From NCBI RefSeq assembly GCF_019797865.1, contig NZ_CP081869.1:4106501-4170500 (forward strand): 64,000 nucleotides of DNA, read 5' to 3'. A program made the position numbers and the translations under genes. Positions 5,876 to 18,307 of this stretch are shown piece after piece (positions within the stretch are counted from its first letter, which is position 1; every line of letters begins with the position of its first letter). Source of the stretch: Chenggangzhangella methanolivorans. Its GTDB lineage: Bacteria; Pseudomonadota; Alphaproteobacteria; Rhizobiales; Methylopilaceae. The notes under the pieces were generated by a model. The model saw only the letters and a program-made list of their open reading frames with translations. It was not told the origin of the DNA and ran no database searches.

Positions 5876-6654
5876 TCAGTCGGACGTTTTGTCCGCAACC
5901 GTCGGACGGCGCAACAGATAGCTGTCCATGATCCAGCCGTGAGCCGCGCGGGCCTCGGCCCTGACGCGCTCGATCTCGCCGGCGACGTCGTCGAGTTTTC
6001 CCGCGATCAGGATCTCGTCCGGCGTGCCGACATAGGCGCCCCAGTAGATGTCGACGTCGTCTTCGCGGAGCCGCCTGAAGGCGTTTTCGGCGTCGAGCAT
6101 CACCACCACGCTGTCGACCCCGTCCGGAAACCGCTCGGCCAGACGTCGCCCGGGCGTGATCGTGACCGCGCGGCCGATCGCGTTCAGCGTCGTGCGGTGC
6201 CGTGCGGTCAGCGCCTGGACGCTGGTGATCCCGGGGATCACGTCCCAGTCGAGATCATGGCGTCCCGACGCCGCGATCGCTTCGACGAGCCGGATCGTGC
6301 TGTCGTAAAGCGAAGGGTCGCCCCAGACGAGGAAGGCCCGCATTCGCCGTCCCTGAGCTCCGCTGCGATGAGACGCTCGAACACCGCCTGTTTGCGCGCG
6401 TTGAGATCGGCGACGGCCGCGAGATAGTCGCCCTCGCGCTCCCGCTCGGGGTTGGCCGCGTCCACGAAGCGATAGGCGCGCTCGCCCATGTGCCGCGCGC
6501 AGATCTTCTTCCGCAGCGCGTTGAGCTTCTCCTTGGCCGGGCCCTTGTCCATCAGGAAGACGACGTCGACCTGGCTCAGCGCCTTCACGGCCTGGATGGT
6601 GAGATGGTCGGGGTCGCCCGCGCCGATGCCGATGATCTTGATCGTCTTGGGCAT
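5876..6654 (-). CDS. cobF: precorrin-6A synthase (deacetylating) CobF (frameshifted)
   Basis: About 259 aa after repair. CobF uses SAM to methylate C1 of precorrin-5 and removes the acetyl group, giving precorrin-6A in aerobic cobalamin synthesis. The N-terminal half has the tetrapyrrole-methylase start IIGIGAGDPDHLTIQA and DKGPAKEKLNALRKKIC. The second half has FLVWGDPSLYDSTIRL, VIPGITSVQALTARH, VVVMLDAENAF and DIYWGAYVGTPDEIL, all typical of CobF. The frame breaks in the C-run 6337-6339; one more base joins RDGECG to AFLVWGDP. It is divergent from the riboswitch-controlled B12 receptor gene. No other cob genes are in the window. Confidence 0.9.
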
Positions 6655-6835
6655 GCGCCCTCCCGCACCGCCGTCCGGCGTGTCGAAGCGCGACTGGTAG
6701 CGGCTCGGGCCGCAAAGCGCGAGATCCGATGGACGGTTCGATCACGGCTGCGCGAACGCCGTAAGTCCGATTGCGAAGACGATCGCGGACAGCTAGCGTC
6801 GCCTCTGTCTTCGGCTCGCGCCGAAGGCTTCGATC

Positions 6836-7057
6836 ACGTCGGCGCTTCGAAAGAAGCTTAATTGGGAACTCGGTGAGAGCGACGTGTCGCTCAATTCCGA
6901 GGCTGTCCCTGCAACTGTAAGCGGCGAGTTCGATGCGCGTTGGAAGCGGGGCGAGGCCCTGAGCTTCCGGCCACTGGAAGGGATCCGCGAGTCGGAGCCG
7001 ATCCGGGAAGGCCAGCGCGTCGGGCCGTGACCCGCGAGCCAGGAGACCTGCCGGCGT
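6836..7057 (+). promoter_or_regulatory. cobalamin (AdoCbl) riboswitch
   Basis: The conserved core GCTGTCCCTGCAACTGTAAG is at about 6900-6919. A later CCACTGG block (6971-6977), GGGAAGGCC and the B12 box GAGCCAGGAGACCTGCC (7036-7052) follow in the order of the cobalamin riboswitch family. The outer P1 stem can form between 6836-6843 (ACGTCGGC) and 7050-7057 (GCCGGCGT). It precedes the TonB-dependent receptor gene at 7238. Such switches turn expression off when intracellular adenosylcobalamin is plentiful. Confidence 0.93.
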
Positions 7058-7200
7058 CCGATCGCTTGCCGCGGCCCAGGGGATGGCCGGGGCGCGGCTT
7101 CGTCCGTCTGAGCGACAACGGTGCGGCGGGGGCCGCATCGGTTCGTTCTGGCGGGCCCATGCGCCGATCCGCCCGAAACGCGCCGACCGTGATCCACGGA

Positions 7201-7231
7201 GTCCCCCGCTCGAGTCGCAAGGCGCGGGGAC
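7201..7231 (+). promoter_or_regulatory. hairpin covering the ribosome-binding site of the B12 receptor gene
   Basis: GTCCCCCGC (7201-7209) can pair, with one bulged C, with GCGGGGAC (7224-7231). The right arm contains GGGGA, the only purine-rich ribosome-binding sequence before the ATG at 7238. This is where a riboswitch expression platform that blocks translation would sit. The pairing is seen; the switching role is inferred. Confidence 0.5.
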
Positions 7232-7237
7232 GACGCG

Positions 7238-9471
7238 ATGAACTTCGGCATGACCTTGCGTGCGGCGGGCGCCTTGTCGGCCGCCCTCGGACTGGTCGCG
7301 CCGGCGTTCGCCCAGAGCGCGGAGGACGCCGAAGAGGCGACGCAGCTCGAGACCATCACGGTCGTGGGCGACGAGCCGAAGCTGAAGGACGTCCAGTCGC
7401 CGGGCGAGGTCTCGGTCGTCTATCCCGACGACGTGAAGGGCGAGCACAAGTCTCTGCCCGACCTGCTGGACCAGATCCCCGGCGTCTATGCGCGCCGGGT
7501 GGCGGGCACCGGCCAGTACACCACCGCCAGCATCCGCGGCTCCTCGCCCAGCCAGGTGAACATCTACATCGACGGCGTGCCGTACAACACGGCGAGCGAG
7601 GCCGCGACCGACATCTCCACGATCCCGATGTCGAACGTCGAACGGGTCGAGGTCTATCGCGGCACGACGCCGGCCCGGTTTTCCGGAGCTCCGCTCGGCG
7701 GCGCGATCAACATCGTGACGAAGCGGCCGGACCAGGCGCGCTCGAGCGCCTCGGCGGGCGGGCGCTCCTTCGGCGGCGGCAGGCTTCGGCAGCGTCACCG
7801 CCCCGCTTGCCGGCGGCACGCTGCTCATCGGCGTCGACGGCGAGAAGAGCACGGGCGATTTCGACTACACGAAATACGCCGTCAGTCGCTGGACCGGATC
7901 GTCTATTCGGACGGCACCACCTATGCGCAGCGCAATCCGAACTCGCAGCGCCCGACCGACCGCACCCGCCTCAACAACGACTACGAGAAGGCCAACGGCC
8001 TCCTGAAGTGGCAGAACGAGACCGTCTTCGCGAAGTGGTCCTACAACGCCATGGAGCGCTTCATGCCGACGGCGGTCGATCTCGGCGCGCTTCGGTGGGA
8101 GGACGTCAAGGATCCGCCGATCACGGGCGTCGACAGCGAGCGCCGCCGTCAGCGCGTCAGCGAACACAACGGCGCCTTCGGCTGGCGCGACACGTTCGGC
8201 GACCTCACCGTCGGCGCGACCGGCACCTTCATGGACCAGTCGAAACGCTACCGGAACCTCGACATGGTCGGGTTCCAGGGCGTCGGCGCGATCTGGTCGG
8301 ACTACCGCACGCGCCGCTACGGGATCTCGGGCGACGCGGCCTACGAACTCGGCAAGGACTGGGCGCTCGGCCACCGGCTGGAAGTGCGGGCCGAGCAGCT
8401 CTGGGAGACGCTCTACGCCGATGCGAGCGACCGCGAGGGCAGCGATCTGCTGACCCGCTTTCCCCGCCGGCGCAGCACGATCCAGGCGCAGGACACGATC
8501 ACGGTCCGTCCGCTCGGCGACCTCGAGGTCACGCCCGTCGGCCGCCTCGAAAAGCTCGACGGTCCGGTCCTCGGCAGCCGCCTGTCGCCGCTCGGCGGCG
8601 CCTCCGGCGACTACGGCTGGAAGCCGAGCTGGAGCCTCAGCGCCAAGAAGCGCCTGTTCGACGGCTGGGAGGTGTTCGCGAACACGGGCACGTACAACCG
8701 CTACCCGAGCTTCTACGAGATCTACGGAGACGGCGTTTACGTCTCGCCCGACCTCGACAGCACGAAGAAGGCCCGCCAGCTCAAGCGCGAGCACGGGACG
8801 AATTTCGACTCGGGGTTCGGCTGGACCGGCGCGCTCTGCGGCGACTGGAAGGGCGGTTTCCGCCTCACCTATTTCCAGCGCCGGAGAACGCCATCACATT
8901 CTACCAGACGCCCGCCGGCGCGAGATACGTCAACTCTGGCACGACATTGACGCGGGGCCTGGAGTTCGAGGGGAACCTCGCCTTCGGCGACCGGGCCGAC
9001 CTTCATCTCGCCGGCACGCTGCAGGACGGCCGCTACGTCAAGGGCACCTATTATTTCTTCGGCGGGACCGACGCGCGCGTCGTCGACGGCAAGCTCCGCG
9101 TCCTGCGCAATCCGGACTTTAGCGCCAACGCCCGCCTCAACGTCCACTTCCTCGAGGGCGCGCTCACGACCTTCGCCGAGCTTCGTTACGTGGGCCGCGT
9201 CTACCACGCGCAGTTCGCGCGGGAGAAGCAGGCCTATGAGGAGCCGCTCACCACGATCGATCTCGGATCGCACTATCGGTTCGAGAACGGCCTCAAGATC
9301 TCTGGCGGCGTCACCGACATCTTCAATCGCGGTCCGAAGCAGAGGTTTTCGGGACTTCTGCTGCATCAGGACCCGACGACGTCAGAGCCAAAGTACTGGG
9401 ATCTGCGACCGAACGTCTATTACCCGCAGCAAGGCCGCACGGTCTACGCGACCGCGACGATGACGTTCTGA
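7238..9471 (+). CDS. btuB: BtuB-like TonB-dependent outer-membrane receptor for cobalamin (three frameshifts)
   Basis: About 744 aa after repair. The start at 7238 gives a signal peptide (MNFGMTLRAAGALSAALGLVAPAFA), then a TonB-box-like ETITVVGD at about residue 40. The plug domain follows, with LPDLLDQIPGVYARR, SIRGSSPSQVNIYIDGVPYN and VERVEVYRGTTPARFSGAPLGGAINIVTKRP. The rest is a 22-strand-type barrel ending in VYATATMTF with the terminal F of Omp85-folded barrels. The frame is lost at about 7771-7784, regained at 7883 and lost again at about 8880. The cobalamin riboswitch upstream supports B12 or a cobamide as substrate. It is followed 33 bases later by an exported propeller-like protein in the same direction. 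Confidence 0.88.
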
Positions 9472-9504
9472 CGGCGAACGATTTTTCACATGGAGAGCAT
9501 AAAC

Positions 9505-10893
9505 ATGACTGAAGTCTCGCTTCACGCCTCTCGCCGGACGGAGGGCGGACCGCTCAAGGCCCTCGTCGCAAGCGGGCTCGCGGCGCTCTGCCTCGCCGCC
9601 GCGCCGTCCGCAAGCGCCCAGGACGCCACGGCTACGCCGCCTACACGGTCTACACCTACAATGGCGGCCCGCAGGGCATGGCCGGCCGCATCCGCGACGA
9701 CGGAAGCGCCGTCACCGTCATCCGCAATCTGCGCACCGGCCTCGGCGGCGATCCGATCGTCGAGGGCGTGGTTCCGGCCGACGGCAAGTTCCGCATCGCG
9801 GTGACCGACCGCGTCTCGGCGCCGGGCGCGATCCCGCCCACATACATCTACAACGCCGCGCCCGCCACGAACCCGCTGCCGAGCGCGAGCCCGACCTGGT
9901 CGAACGTGCGCAACATGTCCGGGCTCGTCCGCCTCGGCAAATATCTCTACGCGCTCGACTACGACAACGCCCGCGTGGTCGAGATCGCGAAGGGAACCTT
10001 CGCCGAGACGGGCGTCACCTATTCGCTTCCCGCGCGCCTCACCCCGGAGGGCTTCGCCGCCCGCGGCCAGGCGATCGTCGTCGTGAACGACACGCTCTAC
10101 GTGCTGTTCGCCTTCCCCGACGGCTCGTTCTCGAACTACGCCGACAGCCTGCTGGCGCGCTTCACCGTCAAGGGCGGCAAGTCGATCACGCTGAAGGAGG
10201 GCGATTACAACGCCGGCCTCGTGAAGAACGCCTTCGCGATCGCGGCGAACGGCTCGGACCTCTACGTCGCCGGCATCGGCGGCTCGCAGGGCGGCGGCAG
10301 CTACAGCAAGGCCTCGCGCCTCCAGAGGATCGCGGCGACGCCGCGGACCTCTCGACCGCCAAGGTCAAGAACGTGCTGAAGCCCTCCAAGGATCGCCCCT
10401 ACGATATCCGCGACATCAGCTTCAAGGGCTCGACCGCCTATGTCCTGCTCGGCGCCTATGACGCCAACTTCACGATGACGGGCAGCTCGTCAGCACGACG
10501 AACTTCGAGAACTTCAAGGTGATCAACGACTTCAGCGCCGGCGCGCCGGGCTATTTCTGGGCGGCGCAGTATGTGCCGGACAACGACCGGATCTATTTCG
10601 GACGCGGCAGCGAGATCCTCGTCTACGACGCCTCGAAGACGAAGACGCCCGCCGCCACGCTGACGCTCAATCCGGGCAGCCTGATCTCGTCGGGCGACCC
10701 GTACGACAACATCAACGACTTCGCTTATGTGGGAGCGAAAGGCGGCGTCACGACGCTGCGCGGCTACCGCTCGCCGGTCCAGGCCTCTGCGACCCCGATC
10801 GGGCAGGCCTCGCGCGCCGTCTCGAACGGCAAGCCGGAGCTGAGCCCCGCCGAGCGGGCGCAGGTCGAGCGGCTGCTGTCGGGCGGCAAGTGA
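9505..10893 (+). CDS. exported beta-propeller-like protein, possible B12-binding partner of the receptor (three frameshifts)
   Basis: About 463 aa after repair. The start at 9505 has GGAGAG eight bases upstream; 9490 is an alternative. A signal peptide (LKALVASGLAALCLAAAPSASAQD) is clear, with no good lipobox. The mature part has regularly spaced blade-like strands: GLVRLGKYLYALDYDNARVVEI, AIVVVNDTLYVLFAF, AIAANGSDLYVAGIGG, ISFKGSTAYVLLGAYD and NDRIYFGRGSEILVYDAS. These suggest a propeller of about six or seven blades, but I do not recognise a named family. Frames break at about 9626, 10334 and 10481. It follows the riboswitch-controlled receptor by 33 bases, so it is probably in the same B12 regulon. 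Confidence 0.75.
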
Positions 10894-11024: not shown

Positions 11025-12521
11025 TTACGCCGGCGACAGCGGGATGCTCTGCTCGAACCGGAACAGATTTTCGGGGTCGTAGTGACGCTTCACCGTGCTC
11101 AGCCTCGCAAGGTTGTCGCCGTAATAGGCCTGCCGCCAGTCCTTCAGCGTCCGGTCGGGGAAGTTCACATAGGACCGCGGAAGCACGAAGCGCTGCATGT
11201 CGGCGAAATAGTCGTCGAGCCAGCGGGCCTGCTTCTCCACCAGATCCGGCGGATCGAGCGGCGACCATGCCCGCTCCATCTCGAAGATGAAGTTGGAGCC
11301 GCGGTGCGCATAGGCGGTCTCGTCAGGCTTTTTGTCGCCGACCGCGCCGCCGATCGCGAACAGAATGCCCATGTTCGATTGCGCGATCGAGCCGCCGGGC
11401 CATTTCGTCATCCAGGACAACGACGCCTCCAGGGCGTCGGCGGCCAGTTGCTCCCGCACCATGCTCGAGCGGACGTCGAAGAACCCTTCCGGGTCGTCGG
11501 TCACCAGATAGTCGCGCGCCTCCCAGTAGCTCATCTGCTTGATGTAGGCGCGCGCCGGCGCGCGCTGGCGAAACAGCGGCTGGATCAGCTCGCGGAAGGC
11601 GCTTTCCTCTCCGTAGAACAGGCCGAGCGTCTGCGCGGCGAGCTGATCGAGCCCGGGGAACGGCCCCGCCCGTCCGGCCGCGACTTTGCTGCGTGGAGAT
11701 GTCGCGCGCGTTCTTGAGCTGCAGATCCTGCAGCGCGAGCATCATCTCGACCTGCTTCTGCGCCGGCCAGACGATGTTGAAGACCGTCACGTTCCCGACC
11801 GGCACCAGGCGATAGGTCAGGCTCGTGTTGATCCCGAAGTTCCCGCCGCCGGAACCGCGCAGCGCCCAGAACAGGTCGGGATTGGTCTCGGCGCTTGCGG
11901 TGAGAGGCTCCAGATTCGCCGGGACGAGGTGGTCGACAGCAGTCTGTCGCAGGTCAGGCCCGCATGGGTGCTGGCGAAGCCCCAGCCGCCGCCGAGCGTC
12001 AGGCCGGTGACGCCGACGGTCGGGCAGCGGCCCGAGGGAATCGCGAACGGATAGGCGCTCGCGACGTCCGCCACGTCCTGATTGGTGGCGCCGCCCTGCA
12101 CGGTGAGGGTCTGGTCGCCGAGATTGACGCTGACCCGGCGCAGCGCGCGCATGTCGATCAGCAAGCCCGGCGTCGTGGAGTAGCCCGCATAGGAGTGGCC
12201 GCCCGAGCGGACCGCGAACACCTCGCGATTGTCGCGCGCCCAGCGCAGGCACCGCACGACGTCGCTATCTGAGGCGCACAGCGCGATGGCGCGCGGCAGC
12301 ACGTGGTCGTAGCGCGCATTGTTGGACCGGGCGCTGTAGCGGTACGCATAATCGTCGGGCAGCAGAAGCCGGCCCTGCATGTCGCGAGCGAGCGCCAAAA
12401 GGCCGCCATCGCCGGAGCCGATCACGAACTGCGCGAGAGCTGCGTTCGGAGCTGCGGAGACCGTCGCGCCCGCTGCGAGTCCGGCGCCGATGAAACCGCG
12501 CCGGGAAAATGACGTCGCCAT
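11025..12521 (-). CDS. Tat-exported FAD-linked oxidoreductase, berberine-bridge (BBE) type (two frameshifts)
   Basis: About 499 aa after repair. The start at 12521 gives a twin-arginine signal, SFSRRGFIGAGLAAGA, ending at ALAQF. The PP-type FAD domain has VRSGGHSYAGYS, whose His is the 8-alpha FAD attachment site of the family. GRCPTVGVTGLTLGGGWG carries the Cys that makes the second, 6-S-cysteinyl bond, so the flavin is probably bicovalent. The C-terminal BBE segment ends in RHYDPENLFRFEQSIPL. Frames break at about 11940 and about 11665-11690. Relatives oxidise carbohydrates or alkaloid-like alcohols with O2; the substrate here is unknown. It converges with the B12 propeller gene. Confidence 0.85.
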
Positions 12522-12881
12522 CGCTGACACCCGAGAGACTGAGGGGAGGGGTTGCTCGCCGGGGTGGTGATGCTCCCCGCTTCTCACCCGGCGGACGCGC
12601 GAATCCTCTCGCGATTTGAGCGGTCGTCGACCGCAAGCGCAAGAGGCCGGAGGCGCACAGGCCGGGTTTCGCGGCGCTTCCGCCGGAGATCGTGGGGATG
12701 GCGCCGGCGTCGGCGCGAGGGCGTCATCCCGGCCGTTCCAACGACCGGCAGGCGCGCGCATGTGTCGGGAGCGGACGCTCCCGGCGCGTCTTCGGCGCTC
12801 GCGCCGACGCGGGAAACCCGGCCGTGAGCCTCGCGGGGGCTCGATGAAATGGAGTTTCTTCGGGGGTTCCCAAAGGAAGAT
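12522..12881. other. 360-base gap with no supported gene
   Basis: It lies between the oxidoreductase start and the 3' end of tRNA-His. It should hold the oxidoreductase promoter. I see no ribosome-binding site plus reading frame, hairpin or repeat worth naming. Open frames here are ordinary for this GC content. Confidence 0.5.
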
Positions 12882-12958
12882 TGGTACCGCCACCCCGGCT
12901 TGAACGGGGGACCTCTAGATCCACAATCTAGCGCTCTAACCAACTGAGCTATGGCGGC
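12882..12958 (-). tRNA. tRNA-His (GTG)
   Basis: A 77-nt cloverleaf with an encoded CCA end. The D stem is GCTC/GAGC. The anticodon stem is CTAGA/TCTAG around the loop TTGTGGA, giving anticodon GTG. The T arm is CCCCG TTCAAGC CGGGG. The acceptor GCCGCCA pairs with TGGCGGT, with a G1-U72 wobble, and the discriminator is A73. The base encoded at -1 is C, so the canonical extra G-1 opposite C73 is not encoded. This fits the alphaproteobacterial tRNA-His variant. Confidence 0.96.
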
Positions 12959-17442: not shown

Positions 17443-18307
17443 TCATCGCAGGAAGCAGGTGTAGCCCGACCGGGTGTCCTTCCAGCTGTAGGGACCGCAC
17501 AGGCGCTTGCCCGCCGCCAGCGTGTGCTTGGCGATGTGCGAGATCAGCCGCTCGTACGGCCTGTCTCCCTCGATGTAGCCGGAGAAGTTGCCGATGTCGC
17601 CCGAGGCCGCATAGACGGCGTGAACCCCCGGCACCCTCGCGATCGCGGCCGCGTTCTTCACGCCCTCGATGGTCTCGATCATCACGATCAGCACGATGTT
17701 GTTGTTGAACGTGTTTCGGTAGCTGACGCCGGCGGGGAGCCACGGAGCGAGCCGCCGCGGTCTGGCTGCCGCCGTTGCTGCGCTTCCCCATCGGCGGAAA
17801 ATACGTCCACTGCACGACTTCCCGGGCTTCTTCGACCGTGTCGACCGTCGGCACGACCAGAACCATGGCGCCGCCGTCGAGCGCATGCTGGATCTCCCGC
17901 TCGTCGGTATAGGCGACGCGGGCTCCGGGCACGGCCTTCCGGCCCGGGCATTGATCCGAGCCCGCATAGGCCCACATCCGCCACGCGTCGCCCCAGTCGA
18001 CGCCGGAATGCTGCATCTCGGTCCAAGTGAAGTCGGCGTCGCTCTGGCTCGCTATGGAGCAGTAGGTCTCGTTCATCGTCTCCTGGTTCGTCGTGCTGAC
18101 GGTCGGGCCGATGACGGGCTTGCCTTTGAGCAGTTGCTTCTTGGCTGGGTTCCAGATCAGGCCGCCGGTCGTGTCGTCGAACCGCGGACCGTAGACCCAG
18201 GTTTCCGGATCGATGGGGCCTTGGGCCTGAACCGCCTGCCCGCCCGATAAGAGGGTCAACGCGGCGGCTGCGATCGCGGCGGCGATCAACTTGGTGCTGT
18301 GACGCAT
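17443..18307 (-). CDS. exported HpcH/HpaI aldolase/citrate lyase family protein (frameshifted)
   Basis: About 288 aa after repair. The start at 18307 has GGAGGAAG seven bases upstream. It begins with a Sec signal peptide (MRHSTKLIAAAIAAAALTLLSGGQAVQAQ), unusual for this normally cytosolic TIM-barrel family. Family features are VIGPTVSTTNQETMNETYC, HALDGGAMVLVVPTVDTVEEAREVV and, after the break, VLIVMIETIEGVKNAAAIARVPGVHAVYAASGDI, where the metal-binding E-x-x-G context and closing D are visible. The frame breaks around 17740-17760. Substrate unknown; secreted relatives may cleave or form 2-keto-3-hydroxy acids. Confidence 0.82.

Follow-up and report, generated by a model that had tools for sequence, protein, structure and literature searches.

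A riboswitch-controlled TonB-dependent receptor gene and its predicted beta-propeller neighbour: a candidate corrinoid-capture pair in Proteobacteria

Is a propeller protein used outside Bacteroidetes to capture vitamin B12 for an outer-membrane receptor? In Bacteroides this part is played by BtuG, described in PMC6143338 and PMC10404256 as a B12-binding propeller that forms a lid and is held by a lipid anchor; PMC6143338 reports it exclusively from Bacteroidetes. The question is raised by a locus in a 64,000-nucleotide stretch of Chenggangzhangella methanolivorans contig NZ_CP081869.1 (the window), where a cobalamin riboswitch is followed by a gene for a TonB-dependent receptor and then by one for a protein of about 463 residues, here called the propeller protein, whose family has no name (Table 1). 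A first-pass annotation of the window had proposed that this protein is a BtuG-like partner of a BtuB-like receptor. We judge it somewhat better than an even prospect that the propeller protein is dedicated to a divergent receptor, for which it would capture corrinoids and hand them over, in analogy to BtuG. Membership of the BtuG family itself fails on sequence and on anchor, and working like BtuG is the leading, provisional reading. No BtuG-like partner in Proteobacteria, nor this protein, is described in the open-licence literature searched.

Table 1. Positions of the features discussed, in window numbering unless another locus or contig is named
Feature	Position	Strand	Evidence and remarks
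Cobalamin riboswitch aptamer (RF00174)	6823-7069	+	cmscan 87.6 bits, gathering score 31.5, E 2.8e-20, model 1-189 complete
TonB-dependent receptor, divergent B12/haem type	7238-9471	+	Pfam Plug and barrel; 65-71% identical to the congener's intact 759-residue receptor
Propeller protein, about 463 residues	9505-10893	+	tblastn with two intact congener copies; AlphaFold2 models and structural searches for two relatives
Sec-like signal peptide of the propeller protein (MTEVSL...LVASGLAALCLAAAPSASAQ)	9505-9621	+	Sequence; hydropathy peak 2.37; cleavage site by eye
Conserved C-terminal tail RGYRSPxQ...GxPELxxxE	10750-10890 (start approximate)	+	Alignment and AlphaFold2 secondary structure
Congener riboswitch	L006:6726-6977		
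Congener receptor	L006:7149-9428		Gene intact
Congener propeller A	L006:9504-10922		Gene intact
Congener propeller B	L006:11051-12487		Gene intact
BtuF-like gene	L006:12679-13467	+	Peripla_BP_2, under the BtuF cut-off
BtuF-like gene	L024:4597-5412	-	Peripla_BP_2
BtuF-like gene	L057:2105-2935	-	
CobN/BchH-like gene	L024:11726-16048	-	Scanned
CobN/BchH-like gene	L057:9245-13564	-	By similarity
cobF	5876-6654	-	Several frames
BBE oxidoreductase	11025-12893	-	Several frames
Other riboswitch, window genome (L037)	G000:C1:5375776-5375974		
Other riboswitch, congener (L038)	G012:C1:1409749-1409944		
Two further riboswitches, Accumulibacter sp. 66-26	L025:7794-8018 and 18047-18275	-	

The riboswitch claimed in the first-pass annotation is borne out, with a score above the gathering threshold across all 189 positions of the aptamer model, and it is one of two found in the 5.54-Mb window genome. 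The propeller ATG lies 33 bases past the receptor stop, as annotated. Both genes are read in pieces. By tblastn, residues 20-550 and 552-759 of the congener's intact receptor match the window in two frames; three-frame translation revealed a further compensating pair of shifts, from about 7780 to about 7890, and the frame also changes near 8884. In the propeller gene the frame changes near 9630, 10337 and 10483, and congener copy A aligns in three frames (9630-10334, 10340-10483 and 10480-10881, tblastn), preceded by a piece that encodes the signal peptide; the window pieces are 63-69% identical to congener copies A and B. We took the frame shifts as assembly errors because cobF and a BBE oxidoreductase gene in the window are broken in the same way, and the window assembly thus seems to carry single-base errors. 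Pseudogene decay was ruled out on these grounds and by the intact receptor and propeller genes of the congener.

The window receptor starts with a signal-peptide-like stretch and contains the motif ETITVVG, which we take to be TonB-box-like. Plug and C-terminal barrel domains (PF07715 and PF00593, E 9.6e-21 and 2.2e-8 in the window) occur in its pieces and in two intact relatives, which makes it a TonB-dependent receptor. It is BtuB-like, as described earlier, but the resemblance is distant: the two intact receptors of this type scored 94.0 (congener) and 101.8 bits against the BtuB model TIGR01779, compared with an equivalog cut-off of 599.7, a strict one (among 14 control genomes, three had a match and one passed), and the congener receptor scored 109.8 bits against a haem-receptor model. 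A canonical BtuB is ruled out by a score so far under the cut-off. The receptors are also longer than the model, at 759-784 residues versus 614 positions. Against the BtuB model, the propeller-linked receptor is the top scorer in both the window genome and the congener (89.2 and 93.7 bits), and the best sequence match of the congener receptor in the PDB is Escherichia coli BtuB (E 1.7e-15, in the plug region only).

The propeller protein was found in six genomes: the window genome and its congener G012 (L006), together referred to as alpha, and four beta-type genomes, referred to as beta, namely Pseudothauera rhizosphaerae (L004), Candidatus Accumulibacter sp. 66-26 (L005), G775, which belongs to the order of Accumulibacter, and G1404, which belongs to the family of G775. 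The order of cobalamin riboswitch, TonB-dependent receptor and propeller gene recurs in all six, including G1404, which was located last, after the pattern had been formed. The expected linkage of homologues to B12 riboswitches and receptors therefore holds wherever they were found. The system is not confined to the window's own group. Congener copies A and B share 50-62% identity with the three beta copies compared. The receptor of the Accumulibacter metagenome-assembled genome is itself broken into two frames, and the Pseudothauera contig stops about 200 bases past the propeller gene. The G775 operon is flanked by BluB, CobU and CobO genes, all above their model cut-offs, and by BtuF-like and CobN-like genes below theirs; from a reading of its open reading frames (ORFs), the G1404 neighbourhood resembles it.

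Matches to the propeller protein at E <= 0.001 occurred in 2/61, 2/347, 1/398, 3/300, 1/369 and 2/62 sampled genomes, in samples that overlap and with one G781 row (68 positions, E 9.5e-4, four internal stops) left out of the 300-genome sample before counting, which suggests that the family is rare. The receptor was present at E <= 1e-60 in two of 300 sampled genomes of one order, precisely the two with full-length propellers, and at E <= 1e-100 in one of 150 genomes of the window's order, namely the window genome. A scan of the genome collection by pattern returned two loci and missed G775 and G1404, so it was not exhaustive. Plasmid collections yielded no match to the propeller protein, and viral contigs no confirmed relative.

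What kind of protein is it? Pfam gave no match for the four relatives scanned apart from a weak one in a single relative (AtpZ, E 0.089), and NCBIfam gave none for the three scanned. The regularly spaced strand blocks pointed out in the first-pass annotation are present. AlphaFold2 was run on two relatives, with inputs of 4 and 8 rows, model 1 being the Accumulibacter copy (mean predicted local distance difference test score [pLDDT] 56.6, predicted template modelling score [pTM] 0.67) and model 2 the mature congener copy A (mean pLDDT 63.1, pTM 0.71). Both are predicted propellers, as the first-pass annotation had anticipated, and the strand order, from which blade number was read in place of coordinates, indicates seven blades. 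The conserved C-terminal tail is predicted in relatives to be partly helical, with low confidence. With model 1, Foldseek placed E. coli YncE first (1.3e-9) and BtuG2 fifth (1.9e-8). With model 2, its first match was a B12-bound surface lipoprotein of Bacteroides thetaiotaomicron, 8bmy (4.5e-8), which sister entries lead us to identify as BtuG2, and VIA-align gave BtuG entries in 11 of its 12 highest rows (9-16% identity over 300-313 residues, Z 24.0-25.3) and YncE at Z 22.4. BtuG structures thus aligned at Z of about 20-21 with model 1 and 24-25 with model 2. Support for a propeller is good at the level of prediction; only the better model, model 2, suggests any particular resemblance to BtuG.

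The likeness to the BtuBG system of Bacteroides lies in this propeller-like fold, which has seven blades in BtuG, and in the locus, since in all six genomes the gene adjoins that of a TonB-dependent receptor in a cobalamin-riboswitch locus. The differences are equally clear. A profile of four full-length members, searched against PDB chains that included 8bmx (BtuB with its lipoprotein), gave one hit at E <= 5, and this was not BtuG; the protein occurs outside Bacteroidetes; it exceeds the solved BtuG2 and BtuG3 chains by about 80-110 residues; and neither a lipobox nor a lipoprotein export signal was seen in the window, congener or beta copies, signal peptides and lipoboxes being judged here by eye and hydropathy. 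A plain BtuG homologue is therefore rejected on the tests made. The proposal of a BtuG-like partner stands on fold and locus linkage, but not on sequence, lipid anchor or, in the beta copies, a signal peptide. Sec-like signal peptides, each of different sequence, begin the window copy and both copies from the congener, in agreement with the exported protein of 463 residues first described. The single Cys in the window signal peptide follows ...AAL, and neither congener copy contains Cys, whether in the signal peptide or in the mature part, so the absence of a lipobox noted earlier was upheld.

Three things make a corrinoid-binding partner of the receptor the best reading: the constant association with a B12 sensor and a single receptor type, the predicted fold, and the presence of corrinoid salvage genes nearby. 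The operon would be a cobalamin-repressed uptake operon, which the riboswitch would permit to be expressed when intracellular cobalamin is low. Through the receptor a corrinoid, whether cobinamide or a cobamide, would cross the outer membrane, and the propeller expressed with the receptor would bind the corrinoid and hand it to, or take it from, that receptor. It may thus work as BtuG does on BtuB, with no BtuG homology detectable by sequence. Corrinoid binding, a physical complex with the receptor and action at the outer face are what we infer; the periplasmic face is the main alternative to the outer one.

Several observations weigh against this reading, and the beta copies supply the main unexplained point, since none of the four has a signal peptide. 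They begin MA(T/D/N), aligned to the start of the mature alpha proteins. A Shine-Dalgarno-like sequence precedes the ATG in the three whose upstream nucleotides were read (Pseudothauera, Accumulibacter and G1404). Longer frames that would add a signal peptide were sought and rejected: none was seen upstream in Pseudothauera, Accumulibacter or the in-frame G775 stretch, and the G1404 frame opens at its ATG. Such copies misfit a surface lid unless another export route serves them, and no secretion genes were noticed in the ORF lists beside the beta loci, although no search was aimed at them. The copies with signal peptides, for their part, have no evident route to the surface, a difficulty for a plain BtuG reading. 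Composition leans towards export in three beta copies (12-15% charged residues, 43-46% N, S, T, G, Y and Q, and 0-1 Cys), near congener copy A (13% and 47%), compared with 15-28% and 20-31% for seven proteins from the beta loci that are presumed to be intracellular. Congener copy B, however, looks less exported (20% and 38%), and in charge CobB is not separated from the beta copies.

The fold evidence also has its counterweights. Model confidence is moderate, with pLDDT <50 in much of the N- and C-terminal parts. In VIA-align, model 1 matched YncE first (Z 24.3, 283 residues) and BtuG1 at Z 21.0, on par with WD40 proteins, while for model 2 the non-BtuG propeller 2ece tied with BtuG at Z 24.5 and PpgL was close at 23.5. 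We had considered that conserved residues might crowd one propeller face; our own test did not bear this out, a crude blade assignment giving no excess of them in the loops of one face. Finally, Pseudothauera, Accumulibacter and G775 have other receptors nearer BtuB (444-506 bits, also under the cut-off), each downstream of a separate cobalamin riboswitch. The propeller pair is therefore an addition in these three beta genomes, and the substrate of its receptor may differ there, perhaps being another corrinoid.

A rather doubtful alternative, which overlaps with the corrinoid-capture reading in that the latter leaves the side of the membrane undecided, is that in the alpha genomes the propeller is a periplasmic carrier that takes the corrinoid leaving the receptor plug and passes it on, replacing BtuF. 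The three alpha copies would suit such a carrier, with signal peptides and no lipobox. In the congener operon and in G775 the BtuF-like proteins lack an N-terminal signal peptide, which may mean that no periplasmic binder is present, although further BtuF proteins in these genomes were not searched for. The top structural match of model 1, YncE, is periplasmic; by sequence YncE was not matched in the PDB at E <= 5, though the fold match is strong, and to our knowledge YncE has no link to B12. A figure legend in PMC10875860 lists a TonB-dependent receptor and a propeller of the YncE type among the members of lanthanide-related gene clusters. A periplasmic carrier would leave the signal-less beta copies unexplained.

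It is also unlikely, in our estimate, that the pair imports some other B12-controlled ligand, such as a cobalt chelate or a B12 precursor, which the propeller would bind. The second riboswitch of the window genome does precede a biosynthesis operon with CbtA, CobU-like and CobN-like genes; the receptor falls well short of the BtuB cut-off and does no worse against the haem-receptor model; and three beta genomes own receptors nearer BtuB. Lid proteins of other specificity also exist: XusB, in a passage of PMC13142918, is a siderophore-binding DUF4374 lid lipoprotein and the partner of XusA. XusB resembles the propeller protein as a propeller partner of a TonB-dependent receptor and appears in the structural match lists, but it differs in being a lipoprotein, in its ligand and in its DUF4374 family, whereas the propeller protein has no Pfam match. 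Against another ligand stand the plug of the congener receptor, nearest in the PDB to that of E. coli BtuB, and the genes flanking the G775 operon, which serve corrinoid salvage. The weakest alternative, a lactonase- or YncE-like propeller enzyme that modifies the corrinoid after import, or, in the beta genomes, a cytoplasmic chaperone for corrinoids, would fit the four signal-less copies and the presence of PpgL and virginiamycin B lyase among the structural matches, but is quite improbable given the signal peptides of the window and congener copies, the exported-type composition of three beta copies and the outer-membrane receptor next door in all six genomes.

The corrinoid-capture reading can be carried further, to a speculative and rather improbable proteobacterial "cobalophore", a corrinoid-catching propeller that would leave beta cells without a Sec signal, as HasA does in haem capture, be Sec-exported in the window's group, and feed its own receptor. 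The HasA/HasR hemophore system is named in a section of PMC13142918. It offers a possible model for the beta copies, in that a soluble protein feeds a TonB-dependent receptor. HasA has no signal peptide, and its fold and ligand are unrelated to those of the propeller protein. If a cobalophore exists, propeller folds would have given rise to BtuG-like capture on more than one occasion.

Bacteria outside the Bacteroides group may thus have a similar device for capturing B12. B12-binding scavengers are already known beyond Bacteroidetes, as parts of PMC13398666 describe exported beta-jelly-roll DUF4465 proteins such as BtuJ in eight clades including Pseudomonadota. These share export and B12 binding with the proposed partner but are jelly-rolls, whereas the propeller protein is a predicted propeller with no Pfam match. 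Should the corrinoid-capture reading be right, a propeller unrelated in sequence and paired with a B12-controlled receptor in Proteobacteria would make propeller capture a recurrent solution and provide a new test system, and the signal-less beta copies pose a concrete question, namely by what route the partner would get to its receptor.

Other corrinoid-related genes surround these loci. A BtuF-like gene lies behind the congener propellers, and those in L024 and L057 adjoin BluB and CobU; none of the three products has an evident signal peptide. Large CobN/BchH-like proteins with signal-peptide-like N termini are encoded next to the propeller operon in L024 and L057, beside a small gene that reads as ExbB-like. 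Small G775 genes provisionally labelled BtuM-like and ExbB-like gave no match in family scans. The other riboswitch of the window genome, and the only other one found in the congener, each lie ahead of a biosynthesis operon whose CobU-, CobW- and CobN-like genes were assigned by reading; CbtA in the former (L037), where CobU- and CobN-like genes were read, was assigned by Pfam. The genes behind the two additional riboswitches of Accumulibacter sp. 66-26 read as ribonucleotide reductases.

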